From assembly GCF_022701255.1 (NCBI RefSeq), contig NZ_CP031705.1, positions 6,448,001 to 6,512,000 on the forward strand: 64,000 nucleotides of DNA, given 5' to 3'. The stretch is from Microcoleus vaginatus HSN003 (GTDB lineage Bacteria > Cyanobacteriota > Cyanobacteriia > Cyanobacteriales > Microcoleaceae). Shown piece by piece: positions 3,001 through 46,843 of the stretch. A program made the position numbers and the translations under genes. Position 1 is the first letter of the stretch. Every line of letters starts with the position of its first letter. The notes beneath the pieces were generated by a model. It was not told the origin of the DNA and ran no database searches. It worked only from the letters and a program-made list of their open reading frames with translations.

Positions 3001-5371
3001 CGGTGATACAATTACCGACTTTACCTCTGGAAGTGACAAATTCGAGTTTAGCGCGAGCGAATTCGGTAATTTGACTACGACTAACTTTGACGGTGTGACG
3101 GGTTCAAATCCTGACATTACTGGCCAAGAGTTAGTGATTTTCAGCGGCGGCAGTTATGCCTCTTTAGAAGATGCACAAGCTACAGCCCTGGGCAATTCTA
3201 CAACTGCTGGTTTCTTCGCCTTTACGAATGCGTCGAACGAAACAGTGTTGTATTTTGACTCGAACGGTACCGAAGCGGCTGGTTCTACCTTGATTGCGAA
3301 TCTGGGTACTGCTGCTAGCAATCTGGGAACGGCGGACTTTGTATTCACAGGTACCATCGCCTCTTCTGAGACTGACACTCCTGATACTGGTACTACTACC
3401 AACTCAGGCAGCGTTGCCGATTTAACTGCTGCTGGGAACACTTTCCCAACCGACTTTAACAATTTCGGTTCAGGTGCTGGCGGCTACAACTTCACCACTC
3501 CTGTCTTATTTACCGGAGATGCTAATGTTAACAGCGTCACTGGTACTGAGTTTGCTGACATCTTCAGCGGCGGTTCTGGTGCAGATGTTGTGACTGGCGG
3601 TGCTGGTGCGGATCTGTTTGTTTTCAAAGCAACAGCCGAAGGCGGTGATACAATTACCGACTTTACCTCTGGAAGTGACAAATTCGAGTTTAGCGCGAGC
3701 GAATTCGGCAATTTGACTACGACTAACTTTGACGGTGTGACGGGTTCAAATCCTGACATTACTGGCCAAGAGTTAGTGATTTTCAGCGGCGGCAGTTATG
3801 CCTCTTTAGAAGATGCACAAGCTACAGCCCTGGGCAATTCTACAACTGCTGGTTTCTTCGCCTTTACGAATGCGTCGAACGAAACAGTGTTGTATTTTGA
3901 CTCGAACGGTACCGCAGCGGCTGGTTCTACCTTGATTGCGAATCTGGGTACGGCTGCTACCAATCTGGGAACGGCGGACTTTGTATTCACAGGTACGATC
4001 GCCTCTTCTGAGACTGACACTCCTGATACTGGTACTACTACCAACTCAGGCAGCGTTGCTGATTTAACTGCTGCTGGGAATACTTTCCCAACCGACTTTA
4101 ACAATTTCGGTTCAGGTGCTGGCGGTTACAACTTCACCACTCCTGTCTTATTTACCGGAGATGCTAATGCTAACAGCGTCACTGGTACTGAGTTTGCTGA
4201 CATCTTCAGCGGCGGTTCTGGTGCAGATGTTGTGACTGGCGGTGCTGGTGCGGATCTGTTTGTTTTCAAAGCAACAGCCGAAGGCGGTGATACAATTACC
4301 GACTTTACCTCTGGAAGTGACAAATTCGAGTTTAGCGCGAGCGAATTCGGCAATTTGACTACGACTAACTTTGACGGTGTGACGGGTTCAAATCCTGACA
4401 TTACTGGCCAAGAGTTAGTGATTTTCAGCGGCGGCAGTTATGCCTCTTTAGAAGATGCACAAGCTACAGCCCTGGGCAATTCTACAACTGCTGGTTTCTT
4501 CGCCTTTACGAATGCGTCGAACGAAACAGTGTTGTATTTTGACTCGAACGGTACCGAAGCGGCTGGTTCTACCTTGATTGCGAATCTGGGTACTGCTGCT
4601 AGCAATCTGGGAACGGCGGACTTTGTATTCACAGGTACCATCGCCTCTTCTGATACTGACACTCCTGATACTGGTACTACTACCAACTCAGGTAGCGTTG
4701 CTGATTTAACTGCTGCTGGGAATACTTTCCCAACCGACTTTAACAATTTCGGTTCAGGTGCTGGCGGTTACAACTTCACCTCTCCTGTCTTATTTACCGG
4801 AGATGCGACTGATAACAGCGTCACTGGTACTGAGTTTGCTGACATCTTCAGCGGCGGTTCTGGTGCCGACATTTTCGACGGCGGTTTGGGTAACGACAGC
4901 ATTTCCGGCGACGATGGTAATGACAGCCTCTTCGGCGGTGGCGGTAGCGATACTCTCAACGGTGGCATCGGGAATGACACTTTAATCGGTGGTGTCGGAA
5001 CCAATGCTCTCAACGGCGGTGATGGTTTGGATGTGTTTGTGTTCAGCGGAACTACTGCTGACGGCGGGGACTTCATTACCAATTACAGCATTACTGATGA
5101 TGTAATTAACCTCGACAGCACTGGGTTTGCAGCCTTTACAACCGGATCTGGGCCTTTGGGTTCGAGTTTCTACGCTTACAGCAGCACAGTGTCTGATGTA
5201 ACTGTGTTTGAAGCAACTTTAACCGGGCCGTCCATCATGGCTATCTACGACGGTTTGTCTACTAAACTGTATTACGATAGCAACGGTTCTACGGTTGGTG
5301 GTAACAGTTTGTTTGCCACTGTCGATGTGAATTTGGGACCGACCGGTAATACTGAATTGTTCTTGTTCTAA
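2..5371 (+). CDS. RTX/hemolysin-type calcium-binding giant protein, 5' truncated
   Basis: The reading frame is open from the first bases, so the gene begins upstream; about 1,790 residues are visible. It starts with many GGxGxD nonapeptides (calcium-binding beta-roll), then a Thr/Pro/Gln linker near base 890, then a segment around bases 960-1290 resembling a cadherin-like/CSPG repeat (D-x-Q..IVYTV..FTQADI). A second RTX block at 1350-1730 alternates Asp-rich and Lys-rich repeats. From about 2160 come repeated modules, each with an RTX hairpin (GGSGADVVTGGAGADLF) and a segment ending in FVFTGTIAS; three are near-identical 642-bp copies (2770-4695). A last RTX block precedes the TAA stop. Such proteins are usually exported unfolded by type I secretion and fold on external Ca2+; no secretion genes are visible here. 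Adhesin, S-layer-like or motility roles are all possible and cannot be separated from sequence. Confidence 0.9.
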   Translation, partial: DSIYGGKDNDDCEGGEGNDNVRGDRGNDTVNGGEGNDTVNGGKDNDIVGGDAGSDVCSGDDGDDSVSGGIGNDTVGGDAGSDVCSGDDGDDSVSGGTGNDTVMGGDGSDVCSGDDGDDSVSGGIGDDTVMGGDGSDLCSGDDGDDSVMGGAGDDSVMGGGGNDTLVTGDGNDMADGGDGDDSVSGGGDGEDTLMGGDGNDTLMGGTGNHTCIGGAGNDVFAMSNESDAGSAVITDYEDGQDKFMLAGDLNFNSLSFVQVEANTEIRVNNRTLVRLSNVNATQIDAGDFLGVDPQTQTPNQTPTQTPTPTANPIFNPPRVGANKNGVAGSSGGEQKINRESLEYVDDQQGPGGIVYTVTELPDPTTGQLFFKGAPVQPGSTFTQADINEGFVSFKATVGYKGEAGFGFKVTNGRREFLGQRFSLIVEQNVFNFAGTQQAQVIVGSATLDNDIEGGDGDDNITAGKGKDKIIGGKGKDTIKGGDGDDDIDSGDDDDDIEVSLGKNKIKAGKGNDKVKGGGGDDDIDGGDEDDDIDGGMGDDTVIGGAGNDLLTGNEGNDTIEGGLGTNTLIGGGGNDRFLYRTSRQDITTVAEADFITDFNVTEDVLEFSNAAFSLNASILTKVDITANSTFGAIGGANFLDFTTDITVNSIASLQARFAQLGGNPDVPVFCQFIDAETGRLVVVYGFGARLDIVASFSASIRLDVGNFVFTGEPLSIPVGTAGADNVDFTTSPAAVNYDGLAGDDNIVGSNYNDSLKGGDGNDIITGGLGLDIISGGSGADLFVYRGTKEGGDKIADFTFGTDKFQFTASAFGNLTTTNFDGVSGVSPDITGKEFVIFTGGSYASLEAAQATALGNSTTAGFFAFTNASNETVLYFDSNGTVAGGSTLIANLGTAASNLGTADFVFTGTIASSDTGTTTTNSGSIVDLTAAGNTFPSDFNNFGSGAGGYNFTTPVLFTGDANVNSVTGTEFADIFSGGSGADVVTGGAGADLFVFKATAEGGDTITDFTSGSDKFEFSASEFGNLTTTNFDGVTGSNPDITGQELVIFSGGSYASLEDAQATALGNSTTAGFFAFTNASNETVLYFDSNGTEAAGSTLIANLGTAASNLGTADFVFTGTIASSETDTPDTGTTTNSGSVADLTAAGNTFPTDFNNFGSGAGGYNFTTPVLFTGDANVNSVTGTEFADIFSGGSGADVVTGGAGADLFVFKATAEGGDTITDFTSGSDKFEFSASEFGNLTTTNFDGVTGSNPDITGQELVIFSGGSYASLEDAQATALGNSTTAGFFAFTNASNETVLYFDSNGTAAAGSTLIANLGTAATNLGTADFVFTGTIASSETDTPDTGTTTNSGSVADLTAAGNTFPTDFNNFGSGAGGYNFTTPVLFTGDANANSVTGTEFADIFSGGSGADVVTGGAGADLFVFKATAEGGDTITDFTSGSDKFEFSASEFGNLTTTNFDGVTGSNPDITGQELVIFSGGSYASLEDAQATALGNSTTAGFFAFTNASNETVLYFDSNGTEAAGSTLIANLGTAASNLGTADFVFTGTIASSDTDTPDTGTTTNSGSVADLTAAGNTFPTDFNNFGSGAGGYNFTSPVLFTGDATDNSVTGTEFADIFSGGSGADIFDGGLGNDSISGDDGNDSLFGGGGSDTLNGGIGNDTLIGGVGTNALNGGDGLDVFVFSGTTADGGDFITNYSITDDVINLDSTGFAAFTTGSGPLGSSFYAYSSTVSDVTVFEATLTGPSIMAIYDGLSTKLYYDSNGSTVGGNSLFATVDVNLGPTGNTELFLF
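2770..4695 (+). repeat. Three tandem 642-bp in-frame repeats in the RTX gene
   Basis: Units begin at about 2770, 3412 and 4054, each 214 codons long and nearly identical at the DNA level, differing at scattered positions (for example GTEAAG versus GTAAAG, and Val/Ala after GDAN). A diverged copy precedes them and a partial copy (to about 4870) follows. The near-identity suggests recent duplication or gene conversion. Confidence 0.9.
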
Positions 5372-6105: not shown

Positions 6106-7113
6106 ATGAGTGCCGACTTCTGTGCCCAAAATTCCTTGTCAGTAAGTTTCGCGGATGTAGAGGCGGCGGCAAATCGCTTGCAGGGCAAAACTTTCAAGAC
6201 GCCGGTGCTGACTTCGGAAACTTTCAACAAACAGACGAATTCTCAGGTATTTTTCAAGTGCGAGAACTTTCAGCGCACGGGTTCATTTAAATTTCGGGGT
6301 GCTTGCAATGCTTTGATGCAGCTATCTGAAGCGGAAAAACAGCGGGGAGTGCTGACTTTTTCTTCGGGAAATCACGCGCAGGCGATCGCCCTTGCCGCCC
6401 AGTTGTTACAGATTCCTGCTACTGTTGTCATGCCTGCAGATGCGCCCAAAGTCAAGCAAGAAGCGACTCGCGGCTACGGTGCAGAGATTATTTTGTACGA
6501 TCGCACTCAAGTTTCCCGCGAAGAGTTAGCGGCTAAAATTGGCGCAGAACGGCACTTGACAATTATTCCTCCTTATGACCATGCGTGGGTGATTGCGGGA
6601 CAAGGTACGGCGGCGCTGGAATTAATCGCAGAAGTTGGGGAGTTAGATTTGCTGCTGGTTTGCTGCGGTGGCGGGGGTTTGCTGTCGGGATGCGCGATCG
6701 CGACAAAAACTTTGTCTCCGCAGTGTAAAGTAATAGGAGTAGAACCCGAGCAAGCAGATGATGCGGCGCGATCGTTCCGCACGAAAACGCTGCACACAGT
6801 GACTAACCCGGATACGATTGCTGATGGTGCGCGCACACCATCTTTGGGGAAATTAACCTTTCCTTTGGTGCTGCATTATGTGGACGATATGGCAACAGTT
6901 TCCGAAGACGCAATTCGCCAGACAATGTTTTTTATGTGGGAACGCATGAAGATAGTTGTGGAACCGACGGGAGTGTTAGCGGCGGCGGCTTTGTTGTCAG
7001 GTGTTGTGCAGGCTGAAAATGCGCGGATTGGCGTGATTGTTAGCGGCGGAAATGTGGATTTTAATCATTTACCCAACACCAAAGGATCGTTAGATGCTGC
7101 CATTAATCTTTGA
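6106..7113 (+). CDS. PLP-dependent threonine/serine dehydratase or serine racemase-like enzyme
   Basis: This 335-residue fold-type II PLP enzyme would convert threonine or serine to the 2-oxo acid plus ammonia, or racemise serine. Visible features are the PLP-lysine segment TGSFKFRGACNAL (Lys about residue 62), the SSGNHAQAIALAA substrate loop and the phosphate-binding CCGGGGLLSG. It is about 335 residues with no C-terminal ACT-like regulatory domain, so it matches the short catabolic/racemase type rather than long biosynthetic IlvA. Its last 20 bases overlap the start of the DUF499 gene in another frame, so the two are probably cotranscribed and translationally coupled. No functional link to the downstream defence genes is known to me; the overlap may be chance. 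Dehydratase versus racemase cannot be decided here. Confidence 0.88.
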   Translation: MSADFCAQNSLSVSFADVEAAANRLQGKTFKTPVLTSETFNKQTNSQVFFKCENFQRTGSFKFRGACNALMQLSEAEKQRGVLTFSSGNHAQAIALAAQLLQIPATVVMPADAPKVKQEATRGYGAEIILYDRTQVSREELAAKIGAERHLTIIPPYDHAWVIAGQGTAALELIAEVGELDLLLVCCGGGGLLSGCAIATKTLSPQCKVIGVEPEQADDAARSFRTKTLHTVTNPDTIADGARTPSLGKLTFPLVLHYVDDMATVSEDAIRQTMFFMWERMKIVVEPTGVLAAAALLSGVVQAENARIGVIVSGGNVDFNHLPNTKGSLDAAINL

Positions 7114-10100
7114 TACCTGCGTGCCCAGAGATGAGATTTTATCGGGAGACTTGTCTCTAGATTTATTTGCAGCAAAATTGCGGCTGGTAGTCGAAGGAAC
7201 TGCACCTCAAGTTTATCAAGATGCTAATAAATTTTTTGCCAATACCTTCGCAACTGATGGCATTAAAACCCTAATTCGGGAAGTTTTCAGCCGCTTGATG
7301 AAGCAAAGCGCTGGGGCTGGGGTGGTTCGTTTGGAAACGAGTTTTGGGGGCGGCAAAACTCACGATGAAATTGCACTCTGGCATATCTGCAAGCAAGGGC
7401 GAGAAATTGTCGGATTGGAACGCTTTACAGATATTAGCCTGATTCCCGATCGCCCTTTACAAGTTGCAGCGATCGACGGTCGGGATTTAGACCCAGAACA
7501 AGGAGTTTATCACTCGGACAGCGGCTTGACAACCTATACTCTTTGGGGCGAAATTGCTTACCAAATTGGCGGGATTGCAGGCTATCAGTTACTGCAAGGC
7601 AGCGATAAAAGCGGTGTCAGCCCCGGTACTTCGGTGTTAGAACGGTTGACGGGGGGACAGCCGACTGTGATTATTTTAGATGAAATTGCGCGGTATTTGC
7701 GATCGGCAAAAGCGAAACAAATTGGCAGAAGCGATTTAGCCAAACAAGTGGTAGCTTTTCTATTTTCCCTGATGGATTTGGCGGCAGCCTGCGATAATTT
7801 AGTATTGGTTTATTCCCTCGCCTCGACAGCAGATACTTTTGCGGAAGAAACGGCAGAATTGCAAGAAACGATGCGCGCTTCCGCAAGACAAGAAAGGGTG
7901 TTGAGTCCTTCTACAGATATCGAAATTTACAACATCGTTAAACAGCGCGTGTTTGCCAGAGTTAGCGAGGAAGCGGCGCAAAAAGCGGCATCGGAATATT
8001 TGGTGGCTTATCGCAATTGCCGCGTTAATTTGCCCGATGGGTGCAAAGATGCGTCATACTCAGAAGCGATCGCCCAAAGTTATCCGTTTCACCCGGAATT
8101 GTTCAATCTTTTAACTAAAAAAATTGCTTCTATTCCCGAATTCCAGAAGACGCGGGGGGCTTTGCGATTGTTCGCGCAAGTCGTGCGGCATTTGTGGGAA
8201 AATCGCGATGGTTGGGTGCCGATGATTCACACGCATCATATTCCGGTGGGGATGGATGGCGAAATTACTAACGATCTGACTTCTCGGTTGCAGCGATCGC
8301 CCTTGCGGAATGCGATCGGCGCTGATATCTACAATCCCGATGGTAGGCCGGCTTACGCACAATTGCAAGATGGGGAATGGATAGCAGCGGGAAAACCGCC
8401 GTTTTCTACTTGGGTAAGCAGAACAATATTTTTGCATTCTTTGACTCAGGGAAATTCTTCGGGAATTCGGCTGGCGGAGTTGAATTTGTCGCTGCTGACT
8501 CCGGGGGTTGACAGCGGTTTTGTCGATCGCGCTTTAGAAAGATTAACTAAGGTAGCCTGGTATTTAGACTCCGATCCGGTAACATCTTTAGCGAGGTTTA
8601 AAGAAGAACCTTCGATTAATAAAATCATTACCGAAGAGAAAGAACAAGTCGGGGTAGTATTGGCCAAAGAAGATTTGCGAACTCGCCGGGATAGCATTTT
8701 TGCCACCAGATTATTTACCTTAGTTTCTAATATCGAAAGTCCCGGAGATGTAGACGACAACCCGGATGAGGTGGCGTTGTGCGCGATCGACTTTGACGAA
8801 GCGATGGTGAATGCTTCTACCGACGCAGCCCCGGAATTAATCGAGAGAATTTTCAACAATAGCGGCGAATCGGGGAAGTTTCGCACCTACCGGAATCGGT
8901 TGTTATTTTTGGTGGCAAATCGGCTAGAATTAGAAACGGCGATCGACAATGCCAGAGAATATAAAGCTATTCAAAATATTCTCAAAAGTCAGAACCGACT
9001 GGCAGATTTATCGGGAAGCCAGCAGAAGCAATTGAAGGAACGGCAAGGCGCGAAAGATATAGCTGTGAGAGTATCTTTGACTAATGCTTACCGCCATTTA
9101 TTTTATCCCTCAAATGACCAAGTAAAAGCACCGAAAGGATTGATGCACTACACTCTTACGGCGCAGGATGCGAGTATGGTGAAAGGCAAAAACCACCAGC
9201 AAGATGTAATTCTCAAAGCCCTCAAAGATTGCGGCAAGATTCGCGCCGAAGAAGCTAAACCTTTCGCCCCGGCTTTTATCCTGCAAAAAGTTTGGCCTGC
9301 GGGGTTGGATAGTTGGACAACGAAGGCGCTGCGCGATGCTTTTGCTAAGGATTTGAGTTTGAATATTCTCCTTGATGCGGAAGTTTCGATGCTGCGGGAG
9401 ACGATTCGCGAAGGTTTGAAAATGGGCAATTGGGATATGAAAGTCGGGGAGAGACTGTTTATCAAAACTGATGATAGCGTGTTGGCGCTGCCGGAGACGA
9501 TCGAATTTAGCGATCGCGCCTCCCTCTACAGACGCGGCATTCTCGAACCTCCAGCGCCCAAAGAAGTGGAACTCAGCGCTCAATTGATGCCCAGTACAGA
9601 AGCGGCAAAGCCCGTGCGCGTCAGGTGGAAAGCGAAAGGAGCACTGACGGTTAGTTTGTATCAAGATAATATTTTAGTGCCGGGAAATTTCCGCCCTTCC
9701 GATGAGTGTGAAATCACCATTGTTAATAACACTATTTTTCGTGTCGTGGCCGATTACGGTAACGGTGATACAGCAGAAAAAGCAACCAATGTCAATCTAA
9801 ATCCTCAAGTTTCTAGCGTTCGAGATAGTGGCAATTCTGCTTATGTTGTGGAAACGCTACAGCCGAGTTTGTGGGAGGCGAAACCGCCGATTATCGAAAT
9901 TGACGGCACGATTAATGCGGTATTTGCGGGATTGGGCGATCGCATTAGCGACTACAAAGTGCAAGGCATCGAAGTGCTAGAATTGTCTGTGAGTCAAGTA
10001 ATAGATTATCGCAAATTGGGAACAGCAATTGCCCTATTGCAGCGGTGGCAACCGCAAATCGACCAAACCGCAACCATTCAAACCGGCGACCAATTTGTGC

Positions 10101-10321
10101 GGCTGGAATATCAAGGGGCGTTGCGGGGATTTCAGAGCTTTTTCTCGACTCTCAACAGTTTGTTGAACAGTCCCGACGCGCAAGCTGATGTTAGTTTGAA
10201 AATCACCTTAGAATTCAAGCCAGCTTTGTCGGCAAATGCCTCGGATATTAGCAGTATAAAACAAACGCTCGATCGCAATCCAGTAGAACGTTTAAATTTA
10301 ATGGCAAGAGTAGTATATTAA
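7094..10321 (+). CDS. DUF499-family AAA+-type ATPase, predicted defence component
   Basis: A 1,075-residue protein. Near residues 80-95 it has TSFGGGKTHDEIALWH, the atypical Walker A region of DUF499 (COG1483) ATPases, and near residue 192 a Walker B-like VIILDEIARYL. The C-terminal third has no motif I recognise. The start is supported by AAAGGA seven bases upstream of the ATG. The family is repeatedly found beside DUF1156 DNA methylases and helicases in defence islands, and that is exactly the neighbourhood here (methylase at 11742, PLD-helicase at 14774). The likely role is an energy-coupled motor or regulator of a restriction-like complex; biochemical function is inference. The gene overlaps the upstream dehydratase by 20 bp. 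Confidence 0.85.
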   Translation: MLPLIFDTCVPRDEILSGDLSLDLFAAKLRLVVEGTAPQVYQDANKFFANTFATDGIKTLIREVFSRLMKQSAGAGVVRLETSFGGGKTHDEIALWHICKQGREIVGLERFTDISLIPDRPLQVAAIDGRDLDPEQGVYHSDSGLTTYTLWGEIAYQIGGIAGYQLLQGSDKSGVSPGTSVLERLTGGQPTVIILDEIARYLRSAKAKQIGRSDLAKQVVAFLFSLMDLAAACDNLVLVYSLASTADTFAEETAELQETMRASARQERVLSPSTDIEIYNIVKQRVFARVSEEAAQKAASEYLVAYRNCRVNLPDGCKDASYSEAIAQSYPFHPELFNLLTKKIASIPEFQKTRGALRLFAQVVRHLWENRDGWVPMIHTHHIPVGMDGEITNDLTSRLQRSPLRNAIGADIYNPDGRPAYAQLQDGEWIAAGKPPFSTWVSRTIFLHSLTQGNSSGIRLAELNLSLLTPGVDSGFVDRALERLTKVAWYLDSDPVTSLARFKEEPSINKIITEEKEQVGVVLAKEDLRTRRDSIFATRLFTLVSNIESPGDVDDNPDEVALCAIDFDEAMVNASTDAAPELIERIFNNSGESGKFRTYRNRLLFLVANRLELETAIDNAREYKAIQNILKSQNRLADLSGSQQKQLKERQGAKDIAVRVSLTNAYRHLFYPSNDQVKAPKGLMHYTLTAQDASMVKGKNHQQDVILKALKDCGKIRAEEAKPFAPAFILQKVWPAGLDSWTTKALRDAFAKDLSLNILLDAEVSMLRETIREGLKMGNWDMKVGERLFIKTDDSVLALPETIEFSDRASLYRRGILEPPAPKEVELSAQLMPSTEAAKPVRVRWKAKGALTVSLYQDNILVPGNFRPSDECEITIVNNTIFRVVADYGNGDTAEKATNVNLNPQVSSVRDSGNSAYVVETLQPSLWEAKPPIIEIDGTINAVFAGLGDRISDYKVQGIEVLELSVSQVIDYRKLGTAIALLQRWQPQIDQTATIQTGDQFVRLEYQGALRGFQSFFSTLNSLLNSPDAQADVSLKITLEFKPALSANASDISSIKQTLDRNPVERLNLMARVVY

Positions 10322-10341
10322 AATGTAGGGGCGGGTTTTAC

Positions 10342-10449
10342 TGAGAAATCTCGCTTTTACCCCAGTCTAGATCCCCCTAAATCCCCCTTAAGAAGGGGGA
10401 CTTTGAGAAGACTCCTGTCCCCCCCTTCTTAAGGGGGGCTAGGGGGGAT
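10342..10449. repeat. Palindromic CCCCCTAAATCCCCC element, copy 1
   Basis: It begins with the small palindrome GAGAAATCTC, then GATCCCCCTAAATCCCCC TTAAGAAGGGGG, a spacer, and a complementary arm ending GGGGGGATC. Two further copies lie at 10989-11096 (same orientation, sharing the GAGAAATCTC head) and 11591-11682 (inverted). It can form a long stem and may terminate or stabilise transcripts within the locus. Confidence 0.8.
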
Positions 10450-10537
10450 CGAACCCTAATCGTTAGACAGCAAACCGGTACTACGTTTAACGTGTTTGTT
10501 GACACCAATCCTCATAAACCCGCCCCGCCCATAGACC

Positions 10538-10966
10538 ATGCAAGAATTTCAGTTACGAGTTTTGCCTTTAGATCATAACAATTTTGCATTAGAACTCTAC
10601 CAATGTGCTTACAAAAAAGCCGGAGAGAAAAAACGTCCTGCTGCTAAAAAATTGGGGCGACTCAAAGGAAATGCCCTGGTTTTGGCGAGACAGACAATTT
10701 ATGCAACTCTCAAAGCGAATAATTACGACCCTAAAAGTTTATCTCAGCAGCGACAAACTCCTTATATTTTATCAGAAGAATCTGGCGTAAGTTTGGCGAT
10801 TTTATTTCAATCGCTGCAACCGCTATCGAAAACTGAACGAATTGCGAATATTGCCGAGGGGATTATGGCGATGAGTAATGAAGAGGCACATTATTGGTTT
10901 GGTAAAATTGCCAATGGCAATCGTTCAAATGCTTTGAAAGCTTTGCGAATTTTATTGGGAGATTAA
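10538..10966 (+). CDS. Small unknown protein within the DUF499/DUF1156 locus
   Basis: A 142-residue, basic, probably helical soluble protein with no signal peptide or membrane segment. I do not recognise the family with certainty. It has an N-terminal LRVLPLDHNNFALELYQ segment, a Lys-rich stretch (KKAGEKKRPAAKKLGRLKG) that could bind nucleic acid, and a C-terminal helix with ALKALRILLGD. It lies between the ATPase and methylase genes on the same strand, so a role as an accessory subunit is plausible from position only. Palindromic elements flank it on both sides, which may separate its expression from its neighbours. Confidence 0.7.
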   Translation: MQEFQLRVLPLDHNNFALELYQCAYKKAGEKKRPAAKKLGRLKGNALVLARQTIYATLKANNYDPKSLSQQRQTPYILSEESGVSLAILFQSLQPLSKTERIANIAEGIMAMSNEEAHYWFGKIANGNRSNALKALRILLGD

Positions 10967-10988
10967 TTCGATTTGACTAAAATCCTTG

Positions 10989-11096
10989 AGAAATCTCGTT
11001 TTTACGCTAAGTCTAGATCCCCCTAAATCCCCCTTAAGAAGGGGGACTTTGACTGCTTCCGGTTCCCCCCTTCTTAAGGGGGCTAGGGGGGATCTA
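10989..11096. repeat. Palindromic CCCCCTAAATCCCCC element, copy 2
   Basis: Same head (GAGAAATCTCG) and arms as copy 1 with a different loop. It overlaps an upstream in-frame extension of the next gene, so codons before 11124 in that frame translate this repeat and are not real protein. Confidence 0.8.
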
Positions 11097-11129
11097 GAGC
11101 CAAATGTGACAATTGCGCGAGGAATGTGT

Positions 11130-11513
11130 ATGCAAATAGCTGATTTGTCAAACGAAACTTTAGCCAAGATTAAAACAGTGCGGTGGGATCGAATTATTGA
11201 GAAGCATGAAGGGCCGGAGACATGGGAGTCTGAGTTTAGATACGGCGAACCGGAATTTATCGAAATTGAGGGGCGGTGGGTGTTATTGCCAGTTGAAGCA
11301 TCTCGTCACCAAAATATCACGATTTTGCGGACAATTTGGAGTGCGGATGGTAACTCGCTGACTCTGTTTCTTAAGGATACAACTTTTGACGATGATATGT
11401 TTGTATCGGGATATATGGCTGTGTGCGATCGCCCAAAAGGACAAGAGTTTTTCTTAGCAGTATTGTACCACGAATGGTTTATCATTGAAAAGACGGAGGT
11501 ATTTGAAGATTGA
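11130..11513 (+). CDS. Small unknown acidic protein within the defence locus
   Basis: A 127-residue protein beginning MQIADLSNETLAKIK. I chose the ATG at 11130 because GAGGA lies six bases upstream; an ATG at 11124 is too close to that site, and earlier codons fall in a repeat. The sequence is rich in aromatic and acidic residues (WESEFRYGEPEFIEIEGRW; FLAVLYHEWFIIEKTE), suggesting a small mixed alpha/beta fold. I do not recognise it. It is codirectional with the ATPase and methylase genes, but a palindromic element lies on each side, so membership of the system is an inference; a passenger gene is equally possible. Confidence 0.65.
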   Translation: MQIADLSNETLAKIKTVRWDRIIEKHEGPETWESEFRYGEPEFIEIEGRWVLLPVEASRHQNITILRTIWSADGNSLTLFLKDTTFDDDMFVSGYMAVCDRPKGQEFFLAVLYHEWFIIEKTEVFED

Positions 11514-11590
11514 GCGAGAAGTTTTTGGGATAATACCAATGCAAATTGCAGTTTGCAATCCCTTTAGAGGCGGGCTAGAAGCAACAACCC

Positions 11591-11682
11591 GGAGATCCCC
11601 CCTAGCCCCCCTTAAGAAGGGGGGGACTGGAAGCGTTCAAAGTCCCCCTTCTTAAGGGGGATTTAGTTAGGGGGATCTAGAA
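11591..11682. repeat. Palindromic CCCCCTAAATCCCCC element, copy 3 (inverted)
   Basis: Reverse orientation relative to the two upstream copies: arms GATCCCCCCTAGCCCCCC and CCCCCTTCTTAAGGGGGATT. It ends about 60 bases before the methylase start and just upstream of an AACAAATAACCA-type short-repeat tract. Confidence 0.75.
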
Positions 11683-11741
11683 TTGTGGCACATAACAAAT
11701 AACCAATAACAAATAACCAACAACCACCAACCAACAAAATC

Positions 11742-14510
11742 ATGCGCCCCCAACTCTTCATCGAGAAAATCATGCCGGTGAATCTGCTAAACCAGCAGGT
11801 TTATTACGAACACGGCGGCAATCCCTTTAAAGGATTGCATCGCTGGTATTCGCGCAAACCATTATCGTTTTCTCGCGCTTCGGTGTTGGGGTCGATTTTA
11901 CCCGCAGATATCTCTTTAGAAGAGTTTGAATATTTGCTGGGATTGGAACCGGGGAAGGAAATTAAACTCTACAAAACTCCCCCGTCTTCGGTGCGAATTA
12001 AAAAGGTTCACGACTATTGCGAGAAGGTGTGGGGGAATCGCACGCCGACGATTTTAGATGCGTTTGCGGGTGGGGGAAGCATTCCGTTTGAGGCGGCGCG
12101 GTACGGGTTGAATGTGTTGGCGTCGGATCTCAATCCCGTGGCGGTGGTGACGATGAAGGCGGCTATGGAATATCCGCTGAAGTTTGGCCCGGATTTGCAG
12201 GAGGATATTGATAAATGGGTGAAATGGGTGGGGGATGAAGCTGAGAAAAGATTAGCTGAGTTTTTCCCTTCTTTACCGGGGGAAACTGTGCAGAATTATT
12301 TGTGGGCGCATACGGTGGTTTGTCCGAGTTGTCAGTCGGTTGTGCCTTTGAGTCCGAATTGGTGGTTGTACAAGCGCCCGGAACAGCGAAATTTACACAA
12401 GTGGTGTGCGGTGAAACCGATTCCTAACTTGAAACAGAAGCGGGTTGATTTTGAGTTGGTGAAGGGGAAGAAAGGCAAGGAATCGACGATTAAAACGGAT
12501 GCGGGGGAGTACGATCCGAGTGATACAGTTACTCTAAGTCGAGGTGTTGGTAAATGTCCGAATTGTAGTAGTGTGATTGAAGATGAAATTATCAAGGCTC
12601 AAGCTCAATCTGGACTTTTAGATCATCAATTGTATGCAGTCGCTTATAAAAAAGGGAAAGGAAGTTTAGAATTTAGAATTCCCGAAACATTGGATTTAAA
12701 AGGATGGGAGTTAAGCCAAGAGTATTTAAAGAACAATTACTATGAGTTGCAAATAAAAAATTTCATCCCCATTGAACATATTATTAACGATCACGGTCAA
12801 ATTCTTAACTATTGTCAGCAATGGTTTCAACTATTTAATCCTCGTCAGTTGCTAACACTTGTTACTTATATAGAAATTATCAACGAAGCTAAGGCGCTGC
12901 TCAAGGCTGAGTACGAATTGGAGAAACTAGAGGCGATTGCAACTTATTTAGCTTTAGTATTAGATAGATGTGCTGATGCAAATTGTAGGCTAGTTATTTA
13001 TAACGCGGCTAGAGCTTGTATTCAAAAAGCTTCTACACAACACTCATTAAATTTAATGTGGAATTATCCAGAAGTAAATGGGGCTACAGAACTCTGGAGT
13101 GCTTGTCAAGAAGAAAGTGCTAGAGACTATACACCACTTTGTACTTTATTCGGCACAAAACCCCACTCAACAGGCTTACCCGGTATCGAACAATACGACC
13201 CGAAAAGCATCCAAATTAATGCCGCATCCGCCGATAGCCTCTACCACATTCCCGACAAATGCGTCGATGCTATTGTCACCGATCCGCCTTATTATGGAAC
13301 CGTTCCTTATGCAGATTTAGCAGACTTTTTTTATGTCTTCCAAAAACGAACTTTAGGCGATATTTTTCCCGAACTATTTGTTAATGAAATTTGCGATAGA
13401 GACAGAGAAGCGGTGGCCAATCCGTCGCGCTTCCGCAACATGGGCACATCCCCCGACGAACTCGCCAAACAAGACTACGAAGCAAAAATGGCGCTAGCTT
13501 TTAGCGAATATTACCGAGTTTTGCGCGATGACGGCGTGATGACAGTCCAATTCAACCACAAAGAATCGGGGGCGTGGGACGTGCTCACAAAATCTCTCAT
13601 CGATGCCGGTTTCGAGATTACCGCATCTTGGGCTGTCAGTACCGAAAGCCCGCAAAACTTGCACCAAGCCCAGAAAAACTCGGTTTCCAGTACAGTGCTC
13701 CTCGTCTGTCGCAAACGTGATCCTAACGCCGCCCAAGCTTGGTGGGACGATTTGCGCCCGGAAGTCGCCAACCTCGTAGAACTTCGCGCCCCGGAATTTG
13801 AAGCCAACGACATCAAAGGAATCGACCTTTATTTAAGCGCCTTTGGCCCGGCTTTAAATGTGTTCAGCCGTTCCTATCCCATCCTCAACAGCAGCGGCGA
13901 AGAAGTGCGCCCGGAAGTTGCTTTTGCTGAAGCCAGAAAAGCGATTGCAAACTACCGATTCCGCAAACTTGCACAAACCGATACCGCCGGATTTGACGCC
14001 CTGACTCAATGGTATTTCCTCGCGTGGGATGCCTTTGGCGCTGTCGAGTTCCCCTTCGATGAAGCGCGACAACTCGCCCTCGCCGTCGGCGGTTTCGATG
14101 TCGTTGATTTAGCAAAAAAATACAAACTGATTGACTCGGTTAGCGGCACTTGCAAATTTTTGACACCAAAACAGCGGCTGAAAAAATCAGCTTTTTCGGC
14201 CAATCCGCAAGATTTTTCGATGACATATTTAGTGGATGGATTGCACGCGATTATCGCTTTGTATCAAGAGGATGGAGATATTCAAATCGTGCGCGAGTTT
14301 ATGAAAAAAACCGCTTTGACGGATCACGATAATTTCATGCGGGCGATAGAGGTGGCGCTGAAAGTTATTCCCCGGATTGGGGATGAGAAGAAACGCATCC
14401 CGGAGGAGAAGGCTTTGTTGGATTTGTGGTTGGCGATGGATGAGATTAAGGCGAAGGTTGTTTATCAACAGATGGATATTCCGTTTGAAGGGCAGTTGAG
14501 TTTGTTTTAA
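11742..14510 (+). CDS. DUF1156-family adenine-specific DNA methylase with Zn ribbon
   Basis: A 922-residue predicted N6-adenine DNA methyltransferase (COG1743-like). The N-terminus (LLNQQVYYEHGGNPFKGLHRWYSRKP) is typical of DUF1156. The SAM-binding motif ILDAFAGGGSIPFEA is at about residues 103-118 and the catalytic DPPYYG at about 513-518. Cys pairs CPSC (about 193) and CPNC (about 271) suggest an inserted zinc ribbon. A long helical segment separates the two catalytic motifs, so motif spacing is unusually wide, as in this family. Flanking genes (DUF499 ATPase, PLD-SNF2 protein) make a defence-modification role likely: host DNA marking, or a step in the effector pathway. Target sequence unknown. 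Upstream is an AACAAATAACCAACA short-repeat tract with no clear ribosome-binding site. Confidence 0.9.
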   Translation: MRPQLFIEKIMPVNLLNQQVYYEHGGNPFKGLHRWYSRKPLSFSRASVLGSILPADISLEEFEYLLGLEPGKEIKLYKTPPSSVRIKKVHDYCEKVWGNRTPTILDAFAGGGSIPFEAARYGLNVLASDLNPVAVVTMKAAMEYPLKFGPDLQEDIDKWVKWVGDEAEKRLAEFFPSLPGETVQNYLWAHTVVCPSCQSVVPLSPNWWLYKRPEQRNLHKWCAVKPIPNLKQKRVDFELVKGKKGKESTIKTDAGEYDPSDTVTLSRGVGKCPNCSSVIEDEIIKAQAQSGLLDHQLYAVAYKKGKGSLEFRIPETLDLKGWELSQEYLKNNYYELQIKNFIPIEHIINDHGQILNYCQQWFQLFNPRQLLTLVTYIEIINEAKALLKAEYELEKLEAIATYLALVLDRCADANCRLVIYNAARACIQKASTQHSLNLMWNYPEVNGATELWSACQEESARDYTPLCTLFGTKPHSTGLPGIEQYDPKSIQINAASADSLYHIPDKCVDAIVTDPPYYGTVPYADLADFFYVFQKRTLGDIFPELFVNEICDRDREAVANPSRFRNMGTSPDELAKQDYEAKMALAFSEYYRVLRDDGVMTVQFNHKESGAWDVLTKSLIDAGFEITASWAVSTESPQNLHQAQKNSVSSTVLLVCRKRDPNAAQAWWDDLRPEVANLVELRAPEFEANDIKGIDLYLSAFGPALNVFSRSYPILNSSGEEVRPEVAFAEARKAIANYRFRKLAQTDTAGFDALTQWYFLAWDAFGAVEFPFDEARQLALAVGGFDVVDLAKKYKLIDSVSGTCKFLTPKQRLKKSAFSANPQDFSMTYLVDGLHAIIALYQEDGDIQIVREFMKKTALTDHDNFMRAIEVALKVIPRIGDEKKRIPEEKALLDLWLAMDEIKAKVVYQQMDIPFEGQLSLF

Positions 14511-14534
14511 GGGATTTACGCGCGGGTGGTCAGG

Positions 14535-14710
14535 TTTTTTTGAGGACACGGCAGTGCCGTTTCCATACAATTAATCGGGCAATTGTTACGTTTATAATCC
14601 AGGAATATTGATTGTTTTGCGGTAGGGAAACGGCACTGCCGTGTCCTCTGCTGCCCTGGATCAATGATTGTTTTGAAGTAGGGAAACGGCACTGCCGTAT
14701 CCTCCGTTGC
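14535..14710. repeat. Cluster of three GGAAACGGCACTGCCGT palindromes
   Basis: Three copies of a short palindrome (GGACACGGCAGTGCCGTTTCC and the reverse, flanked by ACAATTAATCGG or GTAGGGAAACGG) fill the gap between the methylase and helicase genes. The same family occurs at 5409-5540 and 5877-5902. Interspersed repeat of unknown origin. Confidence 0.7.
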
Positions 14711-14773
14711 CGTGTTATAAAGGGTTATAACAAATAACCAATAACAAACAACCAATAACCAATAACCCATAAC

Positions 14774-17700
14774 ATGAATTTACAAAATTATCCCTGGCGG
14801 ATTAGCTATTCTAGCAACGAAAATAACCCGATCGCCGATTTCTACATTCCCGCGCTAGAATGTGCTCTACAGTACGATCGTAAATCCGGCTTTTTCAACA
14901 GCGCCATCCTCAGTAAAGTAGCGCAGGGATTGGGCGCGATGCTGCACAATCAAGGGCGGATGCGCTTAATCATGGGCTGTCAATTCAGCCCGCAAGATTT
15001 GCAAGCCATCCAACAAGGTTACGCCCTGCGAGATGCAGTTACTATCCGCCTCGATACCGATTTACAGCCGCCCAAAACCTTCGCCCAACTCAAACATTTT
15101 GAAATCCTCAGTTGGCTGATTCAAAACAGTTATCTCGATATTAAAATTGCCGTTCCCCTCAAATCTAATGGCTTACCAGTAGATACTGAAAGTTTACTCG
15201 ATCGGCAGCATATTTTTCATGAAAAAGTCGGCATTTTTACCGACAGCAAGGGCGCACAATTAGCTTTTAGCGGTTCCAATAACGAATCTCTCAGCGGTTG
15301 GGAAAGTAACGTTGAATCTTTCCACGTTTATTGTGCTTGGGAAGGCGGCAGAGATGCGGAACGAGTTTTTGAAGAGATTTTTCGGTTTGAACAGTTGTGG
15401 AACAATTTATCGCCGAATGTGCGCGTTTTTGAAGTGCCGGAAGCGGTGAAAAATAAGTTGCTCAGCTATGCGCCTAGCAGTAAACCTGTGTGGAATCGGG
15501 AGGAAGGTTCGGCAACGGATTTTGTAACGGATGTAACGGATGAGGAAGGTTCGGCAACGGATTTTGTAACGGATGTAGCGGATGTAACGGATGTTAGGAG
15601 TCGGGATTTAGGAGGAGTAGTTGGGGATTTTGAGTTATCTCAAGATTATGCTAAATTTGAACCGCTTCTCAATTTGTACGCTTCGCCAAGTTGTCTCGAT
15701 TATTGTTTGAAATCTATTCCGATCGCACCTTGGCCACATCAGATTAAGATATTGCGTAGAGTGGCGGCAAATTTCCCGAAAAGTTTCTTAATTGCGGATG
15801 AGGTTGGATTGGGGAAAACTATCGAAACTGGGTTGATTCTGCGTTACTTGCTTGTCAGTAAAAAAGTCAAACGTGTGTTAATTTTAGCACCCGCCAGCAT
15901 TCAGCCGCAATGGCACGAAGAGTTGCGCGAAAAATTCAATTTGCACTTTTGGAGTTACAACAAAGGTGAATTAAAGAATCCGTATGGGGAGAAAAGTCAG
16001 TCAGGCGAAGAAAATATTTGGAATTCCCAAAATCTGATTTTAGCATCATCTCATTTAGTCCGTCGGAGCGATCGTACCACAGAACTCCTAGACGCCAAAC
16101 CGTGGGATTTGGTGATTCTGGATGAAGCGCATCACGCCCGCCGCCAAAGCCCGCAAAACCGCAAGGAAACTCCGAACCGCTTGCTACAGTTAATGCAGCA
16201 GTTGCGAGAAAAAAGTCGATCGCTCTTATTATTATCCGCCACGCCGATGCAGATTGACGCGATCGAAGTTTTCGATTTATTGCACCTTCTCGGACTGCGG
16301 GGACATTGGTCTTATGGTGAGAATTTCTGCAATTATTTTAGCACATTGTCCGACAAACCCGATCGCCAAACCTTAAATTTTTGGCAGCAGATGTCTGTGG
16401 ATTACTTCCAGCAAGGGGGTTCGCCCTGTTTGCGATTGCAGGAATATTTACAGAAGGGCGATCGGCTACTATATTATAAGTTGCGCGATGTCTGGGAAAA
16501 AAACCAGCGAGTCAACCCAAAACAAGTTGCTGAAGACACGGATTTTATCGCCGCTTCCCGCCAATATTTGACAGTGAATACTCCCCTCAAAGATTTGATG
16601 TTTCGCCACACCCGCGACACCTTGCGCCAATACTATCAGCGGGGATTGTTGGATCGCGATATTCCCCACCGCGCCGTCAGAGATAATGCGATTACTTTAG
16701 AAAATAACCGGGAAGTGCCGCTTTATCTCGCCGTCAGCAATTACGTGCGCCACTTTTACAATCTAGCGCAAAAAGACAACCGCAAAGCGTTAGGTTTTTT
16801 GATGACTCTTTACCGCAAACGCCTGACAAGTTCGTTTTATGCCATCCGCGAATCCTTACAGCGTCGCCTCGAAGGAATTAGCATTACTGAAGATGACTTT
16901 CAGGATTTAGATGAGGCGGATGATGTGATTTTGGAAGGGATGGAATCTTATTTTGAACCCGCCGATCCTGAAGAGATTAAATATTTAGAAGATTTACTGT
17001 ATCAGTTCGAGAATACAGGCGAAGATAGCAAGCTTTCGCATTTTATCACAATTTTGCGTCAAGAACTAATCCAGCGCGAAAGTGCGATCGTCTTCACGCA
17101 GTACACCGACACAATGGATTATCTCAGAACTGCTTTACAACAATTATATGGTGCTCAGATTGCTTGCTATTCCGGGCGCGGGGGAGAATTGTATCAAAAT
17201 GGTCAATGGCGAACTTTTCCGAAAGAACAAATCAAAACCCAATTCCGACAAGGAATCATCAAAATTTTACTTTGTACTGAATCCGCATCGGAAGGACTAA
17301 ATTTGCAAACTTGCGGCGTTTTAATCAACTATGATATGCCTTGGAATCCGATGCGGGTGGAACAGCGAATCGGCAGACTCGATCGCATCGGACAGATTTA
17401 TGATACCGTCAGAATACACAATTTTTACTATGACGGAACGGTAGAGGCGAAGGTTTACAAGAAATTGCGCGATCGCATCGATGCTTTTCAAACCGTAGTC
17501 GGCAATTTGCAACCGATTCTCGCAACAGTTCCCACTTTCATCGAAAAGGCTGTGATGAGTGCAGATCCCGAAGAAGAGGGCGTTTTGTTGGGAGAGTTCG
17601 ATCGCATTTTAGACGCCCCGCCTTTGCGCCTTGCCCTCGATGAAATGGTAGCGATGGATGTAGAATCAGACTTGCAAGAAATCCGTCAACCTTTGCCGCC

Positions 17701-17947
17701 GACTTCTCTGTTTCCTGAAACCATCGAAAATTTGTTTGTCAATTCTTTGAGTTTAAAGCAGATTGGCGCTATCTTCGATCGAGCCGAAAATCGCACTTGG
17801 CAGCTTAACTATAAAAGTCGCGGTTATTATATCACATTTTACCCGGATATCTTTGAGGAAAATGCTTCACTGCAATTGATGAGTTTTGGCAATCCGTTGT
17901 TTGAAGAAATGCTCAATGATCTCGCCCTTATGCCAAACTGTGCTTAA
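14774..17947 (+). CDS. PLD-like nuclease domain fused to SNF2/DEAD-type helicase
   Basis: A 1,057-residue protein. The N-terminal part (about 1-220) has a phospholipase-D-like active site HEKVGIFTD (His149, Lys151) followed by SGSNNES; only one HKD motif is seen, so a dimer would be needed for catalysis. The C-terminal part is a superfamily 2 helicase: ADEVGLGKTIETG (about 341), DLVILDEAHHAR (about 446), LLLLSATPMQ, and QRIGRLDRIGQ (about 863). Between them is a low-complexity linker with two 14-residue repeats. This resembles SNF2-type DNA translocases of restriction-like systems. With the upstream methylase and ATPase it would be the unwinding and possible cleavage part. Upstream are palindromes and an ATAACCA repeat tract; no clear Shine-Dalgarno. 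Confidence 0.9.
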   Translation: MNLQNYPWRISYSSNENNPIADFYIPALECALQYDRKSGFFNSAILSKVAQGLGAMLHNQGRMRLIMGCQFSPQDLQAIQQGYALRDAVTIRLDTDLQPPKTFAQLKHFEILSWLIQNSYLDIKIAVPLKSNGLPVDTESLLDRQHIFHEKVGIFTDSKGAQLAFSGSNNESLSGWESNVESFHVYCAWEGGRDAERVFEEIFRFEQLWNNLSPNVRVFEVPEAVKNKLLSYAPSSKPVWNREEGSATDFVTDVTDEEGSATDFVTDVADVTDVRSRDLGGVVGDFELSQDYAKFEPLLNLYASPSCLDYCLKSIPIAPWPHQIKILRRVAANFPKSFLIADEVGLGKTIETGLILRYLLVSKKVKRVLILAPASIQPQWHEELREKFNLHFWSYNKGELKNPYGEKSQSGEENIWNSQNLILASSHLVRRSDRTTELLDAKPWDLVILDEAHHARRQSPQNRKETPNRLLQLMQQLREKSRSLLLLSATPMQIDAIEVFDLLHLLGLRGHWSYGENFCNYFSTLSDKPDRQTLNFWQQMSVDYFQQGGSPCLRLQEYLQKGDRLLYYKLRDVWEKNQRVNPKQVAEDTDFIAASRQYLTVNTPLKDLMFRHTRDTLRQYYQRGLLDRDIPHRAVRDNAITLENNREVPLYLAVSNYVRHFYNLAQKDNRKALGFLMTLYRKRLTSSFYAIRESLQRRLEGISITEDDFQDLDEADDVILEGMESYFEPADPEEIKYLEDLLYQFENTGEDSKLSHFITILRQELIQRESAIVFTQYTDTMDYLRTALQQLYGAQIACYSGRGGELYQNGQWRTFPKEQIKTQFRQGIIKILLCTESASEGLNLQTCGVLINYDMPWNPMRVEQRIGRLDRIGQIYDTVRIHNFYYDGTVEAKVYKKLRDRIDAFQTVVGNLQPILATVPTFIEKAVMSADPEEEGVLLGEFDRILDAPPLRLALDEMVAMDVESDLQEIRQPLPPTSLFPETIENLFVNSLSLKQIGAIFDRAENRTWQLNYKSRGYYITFYPDIFEENASLQLMSFGNPLFEEMLNDLALMPNCA
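15500..15595 (+). repeat. In-frame 42-bp tandem repeat in the PLD-helicase linker
   Basis: Two units start at 15500 and 15542, each encoding EEGSATDFVTDV plus two residues, and inside each the 9-base motif GTAACGGAT (VTD) is iterated. The period is a multiple of three, so frame is kept and linker length can vary. Confidence 0.85.
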
Positions 17948-18042
17948 TCGAATATGTTTAGCCTGTTTCACGAGTTTACGCTATAGCAACCTTCTCGGCC
18001 GTTAAGACATTAATGATTTCTTCCACCCTTAATAGTTAAGCA

Positions 18043-18082
<40 letters not shown>

Positions 18083-18180
18083 CTATACTTTCCGCTGTGC
18101 TAGAGTTTGGTGCTCAACTTTGGCCGTTTTAGGACTAAACTACTTTTTATGACGATCGTCCTTTTTATTTAATTTGCACA

Positions 18181-45354: not shown

Positions 45355-45387
45355 GGCTTTACCTCTATCATAATTTTTTTATTACCT

Positions 45388-46818: not shown

Positions 46819-46843
46819 GAATTAAATAACATACATTTTTGCT

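Follow-up and report, generated by a model that had tools for sequence, protein, structure and literature searches.

A branch of the DUF499-centred BREX-related systems set apart by DUF7680: a predicted restriction-modification-like anti-phage operon in Microcoleus vaginatus HSN003

The BREX-related (BR; BREX, bacteriophage exclusion) systems centred on a DUF499 ATPase were described by Rakesh & Krishnan (NAR, Nucleic Acids Research, 2026; PMC12839542), the only paper in the searched literature in which DUF499 and DUF1156 occur together. According to its main text, the published DUF499 systems encode the same three enzymes as the locus studied here, and phage defence by one of their helicases, HmaA, has been experimentally confirmed in work cited there. 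In the Type-2 BR systems of that paper, a small standalone DUF3780 protein is present in 98% of the taxa, and its main text describes this protein as having four strands with five helices. Here we report an operon in a 64,000-nucleotide stretch of Microcoleus vaginatus HSN003 (contig NZ_CP031705.1, positions 6,448,001 to 6,512,000; hereafter the window), which represents a branch within the DUF499 BREX-related systems that is set apart by a different small protein, DUF7680. Judging from its gene families, it is probably a restriction-modification-like anti-phage operon of this kind, with DUF7680 standing where DUF3780 would be.

The five open reading frames (ORFs) of the locus lie on the + strand at window positions 7094-17947, and all of them are open at their assigned place and strand. 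The first core gene (7094..10321, 1075 aa) encodes a DUF499 AAA+ ATPase (PF04465, 3.4e-34) with the Walker A motif GGGKTH at residues 85-90 and the Walker B motif VIILDE at 192-197; its best PADLOC model is HmaC (7.7e-99, 330 bits, versus 142.5 bits for the Type-2 model). The next core gene (10538..10966, 142 aa) encodes the DUF7680 protein (PF24728 in Pfam, 2.8e-47), for which no PADLOC or NCBIfam family gave a match. The DUF1156 adenine methylase (11742..14510, 922 aa; PF06634, 7.6e-8, plus an N6/N4 methylase domain in Pfam) carries the Zn-ribbon cysteines of CPSC (residue 194) and CPNC (272) and TDPPYY at 513-518, and matches the PADLOC models HmaB (1.8e-74, 249 bits) and DUF1156_MTase (4.6e-44, 148.9 bits). 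The PLD(HKD)-SNF2 helicase fusion (14774..17947, 1057 aa) contains HEK at 149-151, GSNNES at 167-172, GLGKT at 345-349 and DEAH at 450-453; Pfam finds Helicase_C (PF00271, 2.2e-18) and SNF2 (PF00176, 3.7e-18) and, weakly (0.017), the PLD part, and the N-terminus lies under the PADLOC PbeA match (5.2e-76, best stretch residues 3-243). For this helicase PADLOC ranks PbeA (254.7 bits) and PLD_Helicase (251.6 bits) ahead of BrxH, DrmD and HmaA (215.8 bits).

Among the DUF7680-type rows that we picked for the tree sets, GGGKTH is present in 24/24 ATPases and DPPY in 24/24 methylases, the Zn-ribbon cysteines of the latter in 22-24 of 24 rows; in the helicases, both the HxK and GSxN motifs of the N-terminal HKD nuclease and the GKT and DEAH motifs occur in 20/20. 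The residues on which activity depends are conserved in the ATPase, the adenine methylase, the HKD nuclease and the SNF2 helicase, and the PLD-SNF2 protein is the probable effector. These families and motifs agree with the one-strand trio of the original prediction, namely a GGGKTH ATPase, a DPPY methylase with Zn ribbons and a PLD-SNF2 protein, and the family matches are consistent with its view of the locus as modification-linked and defence-type, of the DUF499/DUF1156/PLD-helicase kind. In the PADLOC search of the five proteins, the enzymes matched Hma and PLD_Helicase models.

DUF7680 is a core gene of the operon, because DUF499 lies upstream of it in 70/80 loci and the gene order is kept in 9/9 non-cyanobacterial plasmid loci. 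The former loci come from a genome scan with one peptide pattern, in which 210 relatives were found and the best 80, nearly all cyanobacterial, were kept. In 70 of the 80, a same-strand DUF499 match, whole or a piece, lies no more than 1.5 kb upstream; downstream of DUF7680 the methylase was found in 59/80 and the helicase in 46/80, and all three enzymes are present in 37/80, counts in which many contigs stop within the operon and some copies are pieces. At two scan loci, L168 and L188, all three enzymes are missing. Across a sample of 386 cyanobacterial genomes, DUF7680 gave 31 matches in 28 genomes, and 23 of the 30 regions around DUF7680 outside the window contain a DUF499 match, whole or fragment. 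DUF7680 also occurs on plasmids (45 records); all 14 records that were opened carry DUF499 (in one case annotated as an ATP-binding protein), DUF7680 and DUF1156, and 13 carry the helicase, the remaining record stopping right after the methylase. Nine non-cyanobacterial plasmid loci, from Sinorhizobium, Aminobacter, two Rhodococcus and five haloarchaea, all have the order ATPase-DUF7680-DUF1156 methylase-helicase, with an extra gene before the helicase in three, and the four genes are linked in both bacteria and archaea. The four core genes are also present on plasmid pAQ6 of Picosynechococcus sp. PCC 7002. DUF7680 was not found among 50,697 phage records; in IMG/VR it is on three contigs, of which two, classed as viral (L195, L196), hold the four core genes. 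The core genes are found together in other genomes, in cyanobacterial and plasmid loci, as the original prediction would have it.

The ATPase and DUF7680 form a pair of closely coupled genes. Between DUF499 and DUF7680 the median gap is 41 bp for the 70 scan-locus pairs (at least 500 bp in 4/70) and -1 bp for 12 pairs from divergent loci (none of at least 500 bp), with one locus, L192, counted in both sets; between DUF7680 and the methylase the scan loci have a median gap of 1677 bp, with at least 500 bp in 50/57 pairs, a width that the methylase-helicase gap reaches in 32/40 pairs. L043 and L044, which are nearly identical and have a permuted gene order, still keep DUF499 and DUF7680 together, and at L180, where methylase and helicase are inverted, the ATPase and DUF7680 remain together. 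L116 has no DUF499 within 10 kb upstream of DUF7680. We regard DUF7680 as the probable small partner of the ATPase. The genome that holds L043 and L044 (G233) has a third, divergent DUF7680 locus, L042.

The place of the operon among the known systems was assessed from quick, unrooted IQ-TREE trees, with SH-aLRT as the only support measure and with long branches flagged; they were built from 76 ATPases, 66 methylases and 55 helicases of loci that we chose, excluding ATPases shorter than 880 aa, methylases shorter than 820 aa and helicases shorter than 850 aa; rooted trees were made from chosen subsets. DUF7680, DUF3780 and Hma types occupy separate branches in all three trees, the support for the DUF7680 branch being 96 for the ATPase (24 rows, including two whose DUF7680 sits on another contig), 94 for the methylase and 61 for the helicase. 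The 19 DUF3780-type ATPases form a branch free of all 24 DUF7680-type rows in the unrooted tree, and the type of the window ATPase falls outside the Type-2 clade. When two BrxH sequences are added to the helicases, the DUF7680 and DUF3780 types lie on one side of a branch with support 100 and Hma and BrxH on the other, the two BrxH rows not grouping with each other and falling among the Hma helicases; a grouping of DUF7680 and Hma helicases is rejected (approximately unbiased test, p-AU 6e-71). With its first 300 aa, the window helicase matches 16/19 DUF3780-type and 0/16 Hma helicases. The simplest reading is that the DUF7680 systems are a deep sister branch of the Type-2 BR systems. DUF499 matches occur in 59/386 cyanobacterial genomes and DUF3780 in 5/386; the remaining DUF499 loci were taken as Hma, since six proteins from three of them best match PADLOC HmaA or HmaC.

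DUF7680 is probably a remote homologue of DUF3780, a homology that is likely and not proven, because the predicted strands and helices follow one order in both, both occupy one operon slot, and their profiles show a weak, mostly sub-significant similarity. DUF3780 lies between DUF499 and the DUF1156 methylase in 11/12 loci fetched from cyanobacteria and plasmids (no methylase was found in L077), and the DUF499-DUF3780 gap, with a median of -1 bp over 29 pairs, shows the same coupling as that of DUF499 and DUF7680. The AF2 (AlphaFold 2) model of DUF7680 (predicted local distance difference test, pLDDT, 92.8) consists of E3-10 E16-23 E37-42 H44-49 H51-60 E76-78 H80-93 H99-111 H114-125 H129-141, and that of a DUF3780 protein from a viral contig (pLDDT 81.2) of E20-25 E33-38 E52-57 H59-79 E90-94 H96-109 H114-126 H129-143 H152-161. 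The order of the predicted elements is the same in both if H44-49 and H51-60 are taken as one helix, and that of DUF7680 fits the published description of DUF3780 in the main text of PMC12839542. Nine alignment pairings of the two families gave hhalign P-values of 5.2e-4 to 0.072; the two larger DUF7680 alignments against the two larger DUF3780 alignments scored 26.4-30.4 over up to 138 columns, versus at most 21.0 for 37 controls, and the best control against DUF3780 profiles reached 26.2. A DUF3780 profile run on 14,062 ORFs found DUF7680 as all of its first seven non-DUF3780 matches, and the reverse HMMER search placed DUF3780 at ranks 11, 12 and 14. Searches of the PDB gave a best E of 0.035 for DUF7680 and nothing for DUF3780 by sequence, and no match for DUF3780 at E<=0.001 by Foldseek. 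The original statement that no DUF3780-type gene could be recognised in the locus is wrong or at least incomplete: the 142-aa gene is DUF7680, with a DUF3780-like predicted fold order and slot, although DUF3780 profiles do not recognise it (PADLOC gave no DUF3780 match for the two small window proteins, nor PF12635 in the own genome).

The likely function of the system, as far as the protein families allow it to be predicted, is methylation-guided restriction of phage DNA. The DUF1156 methylase would mark a target sequence of the host genome with N6-methyladenine, and the DUF499 ATPase with its small partner DUF7680 would scan incoming DNA and assemble at unmethylated sites. The ATPase complex would then recruit the PLD-SNF2 protein, which would translocate and cut the DNA with its HKD nuclease.

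ORF3, between the DUF7680 and methylase genes, has no family in Pfam, PADLOC, NCBIfam or PHROGs. Its start is probably at 11130 (11130..11513, ~127 aa, + strand) and not at the called 10986, because the called N-terminus translates an intergenic palindromic repeat and relatives begin with MKLSDLS or similar. This repeat, GATCCCCC...GGGGGATC, resembles a miniature inverted-repeat transposable element (MITE) and has one copy in each spacer from DUF499 through the methylase: 10364..10450 (DUF499/DUF7680), 11010..11098 (DUF7680/ORF3) and 11588..11669 (ORF3/methylase). ORF3 has matches in 13/80 DUF7680 scan loci, two of them short pieces, and in 16/292 cyanobacterial genomes; of its nine strong matches (E<1e-50), three adjoin DUF7680 (in the own genome, G195 and G203) and six lie away from it. 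It matches at full length in both decayed copies of the operon (L269 2234-2611, L274 1115-1492), a hint that it has a function of its own. On these three grounds a five-gene system was rejected, and the unit of five genes that the original prediction assumed did not hold up. As a counterpoint, ORF3 in the scan loci lies on the same strand, beside or downstream of DUF7680 (nine loci fall in one cluster), and by repeatedly adjoining or following DUF7680 it is a recurrent companion there; it is probably a recurrent passenger and not part of the system.

Other cyanobacterial loci hold different genes in the spaces between the core genes, among them a PemK toxin, DarT, macro-domain proteins, M78 peptidases, a subtilase and a ThiF protein (clustered cargo, ten representatives assigned by Pfam, three of them without a family). 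On pAQ6 of PCC 7002 (L307 14450-22166), eleven small genes are nested among the core genes, many of them annotated as toxins or antitoxins (HigB, XisH/XisI, CopG, VapC, PIN). The idea that such cargo is a special trait of DUF7680 loci was weakened by the Hma loci of cyanobacteria, which have wide gaps too (medians 674 and 640 bp), and by the divergent DUF7680 loci, mostly without wide gaps, in which spacers of at most 100 bp were found in 8/11 and 7/11. Since wide gaps occur in the Hma loci as well, spacer cargo may be a trait of the host.

The operon is flanked by genes for a PLP-dependent enzyme and a DUF4090 protein, and has been gained or has decayed at this one site within the genus. Of the 20 genomes searched, 13 other than that of the window have the two neighbours together on a contig, and the state of the site was established in 10 of these: the operon is whole in two relatives (G394, G386), decayed in two (G395, G390) and missing from six (G099, G354, G391, G399, G203, which has the operon elsewhere, and G388). 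DNA comparison with G099 (L270) and the five other empty sites places the missing segment approximately at 7062..18167 of the window. The window is also without a leader or spacer of about 97 bp that is present in three relatives; since the stop codon position of the PLP-enzyme gene was lost with it, the PLP frame overlaps the start of DUF499 by 20 bp (window 7050-7113).

Several observations weigh against a DUF7680 branch of DUF499 systems acting in phage restriction. NCBIfam has antiphage families for all three enzymes, in line with the 'anti-phage-associated' names of the original prediction, but the scores lie far below the cut-offs: 207.8 bits (2.5e-61) versus 1200 for DUF499_antiphage, 213.2 bits versus 1000 for DUF1156_antiphage and 383 bits (3.4e-114) versus 1100 for phospholipD_antiphage. 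DUF499 is not just upstream of DUF7680 in 10/80 scan loci, the two genes are 8.5 kb apart on a Euhalothece plasmid, and in L182 DUF499 is elsewhere on the opposite strand. As to the kinship of the two small proteins, hhalign with a 5-row DUF3780 alignment scored 19.6-20.4, no better than controls, and its probability for homology is at most 31%; HMMER similarity is not significant (best E 0.15 in the 14,062 ORFs), and Foldseek found no match for DUF7680 at E<=0.001 in PDB or BFVD. The window ATPase and methylase have median scores of 213 and 210 bits against Hma and of 125 and 132 bits against DUF3780 types, and a methylase tree rooted on two PglXI leaves the pairing unsettled, with a slight preference for DUF7680+Hma (support 87) and no rejection of DUF7680+DUF3780 (p-AU 0.39) or DUF3780+Hma (p-AU 0.44). 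A mosaic origin, with an Hma-like ATPase and methylase and a Type-2 helicase, was suggested by the bit scores and is unsupported by this rooted tree. The decay of the operon in relatives means that it may not be maintained, and the missing leader makes its expression in the window uncertain. Finally, PbeA-type PLD-helicases are reported to act without DNA cleavage (PMC6459918), which is itself disputed (PMC10853773).

One alternative, that the locus belongs to the ordinary Type-2 BR systems and that its DUF3780 has simply diverged, leaving DUF7680 without a separate rank, seems to us unlikely. It would suit the strand/helix order shared by the two AF2 models, the common operon slot, the helicases lying on one branch side with the DUF3780 types and the DUF7680 proteins taking ranks 1-7 among the non-DUF3780 ORFs of the 14,062 set, but the two types split in the ATPase, methylase and helicase trees, PF12635 finds nothing in the own genome, and by score the ATPase and methylase of the window are nearer to Hma than to the DUF3780 types. 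Nor do we favour a suicide mechanism, in which the ATPase and DUF7680 would sense phage and the PLD-helicase would then turn on the host's DNA, with the methylase just setting the threshold. PbeA-type effectors are reported to block virus with no detectable cleavage (PMC6459918), self-targeting has been offered as an alternative for them (PMC10853773), and toxin-antitoxin genes lie between the core genes in many cyanobacterial loci; against this, the combination of methylase and nuclease is the make-up of self/non-self discrimination, the single spacer gene of the window has no toxin or antitoxin family match, and the spacers of most divergent loci measure 100 bp or less; we hold this mechanism to be quite improbable. 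A housekeeping or mobile-element stability module, serving epigenetic or plasmid maintenance with no role against phage, would fit the many plasmid copies (45 records) and is very unlikely in view of the patchy presence in 28/386 cyanobacterial genomes, the gain or decay at one site and the kinship to systems with an antiphage effect reported in the main text of PMC12839542.

Beyond restriction by the DUF7680 branch itself, we tentatively raise the possibility, which we hold with considerable doubt, that these systems form a fourth DUF499 immunity class, spread over cyanobacteria, alphaproteobacteria, actinobacteria and haloarchaea, with an ATPase-DUF7680 sensor. DUF7680 and DUF3780 might then be a single adaptor fold of ancient origin, gating the ATPase and linking it to the HKD-helicase, and the cyanobacterial spacers might be slots for toxin-antitoxin and other defence genes, which would perhaps serve as a reserve alarm should the system be blocked or lost.

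The parent kind of the system is already known, and the DUF7680 branch, unnamed in the searched text, is apparently new; the 'undescribed variant' of the original prediction thus applies to the branch and not to the kind, which is published (PMC12839542). The main text of that paper (supplements being outside the search) contains neither DUF7680 nor 'cyanobacteri'; in the searched literature DUF7680 is named in no paper and DUF3780 in PMC12839542 only, and no paper treats cyanobacteria, BREX, defense systems and DUF499 together. The DUF7680 branch is the commoner one in the cyanobacterial sample (28 versus 5 of 386 genomes for the DUF3780 type), and despite this its marker protein goes unmatched by the models of PADLOC and NCBIfam. 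An unnamed domain thereby gains a likely role, and a way to recognise such systems in genomes; Picosynechococcus sp. PCC 7002, with pAQ6, is a testable carrier of the four-gene system.

Elsewhere in the window, an ORF of 1742 aa at 143-5371 is made up of GGxGxD-type repeats, which we take to resemble RTX-like calcium-binding proteins, and genes for an O-antigen ligase, polysaccharide export and a P-loop NTPase lie at 43999-49075, where the G+C content is lower. Beyond 22 kb, PADLOC gave no defence match at 1e-10 for the 9 of 23 listed ORFs of at least 200 aa that were scanned.

Compared with the described systems, the locus shares with Type-3 BREX an ATPase-methylase-SNF2 helicase trio that is homologous according to the published analysis (main text of PMC12839542); PglZ, expected together with iSTAND in Type-3 BR or BREX loci, has no Pfam match in any of the eight proteins encoded by the locus and the flanking DNA, and BrxA, BrxB and BrxC are not among the PADLOC matches listed for the window proteins. 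PbeABCD, an archaeal phosphorothioate-linked system, resembles it in that PbeA is also a PLD-helicase fusion and the first PADLOC model for the window helicase, but combines a CxC ABC ATPase (PbeC) with a DndE-like PbeD, where in the window an adenine methylase accompanies the DUF499 AAA+ ATPase. Membership in PbeABCD was ruled out, PADLOC giving no PbeB, PbeC or PbeD row for the ATPase and small proteins, and none for the methylase and helicase among the matches listed. The window ATPase and methylase score best against HmaC and HmaB of the Hma or Type-1 BR systems (HmaA helicase, HmaB methylase, HmaC ATPase), but the Hma loci read run helicase-methylase-ATPase and their helicases are without the PLD part; Hma membership was ruled out by the HKD helicase type, the gene order and the helicase tree. 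As in DUF499-centred BR systems in general, a DUF499 ATPase, a DUF1156 N6-methyltransferase and an SNF2 helicase are encoded together here. The likeness is closest in layout to Type-2 BR (PADLOC models DUF499, DUF3780, DUF1156_MTase and PLD_Helicase), given in the main text of PMC12839542 as DUF499-DUF3780-DUF1156 methyltransferase-HKD helicase, in which the ATPase has lost the TUDOR domain and carries a C-terminal RRM, in part with FnIII domains: the gene order, the N-terminal HKD and a small gene coupled to the ATPase are alike, and the window locus differs in having DUF7680 for DUF3780 and a branch of its own for the ATPase, the methylase and the helicase.

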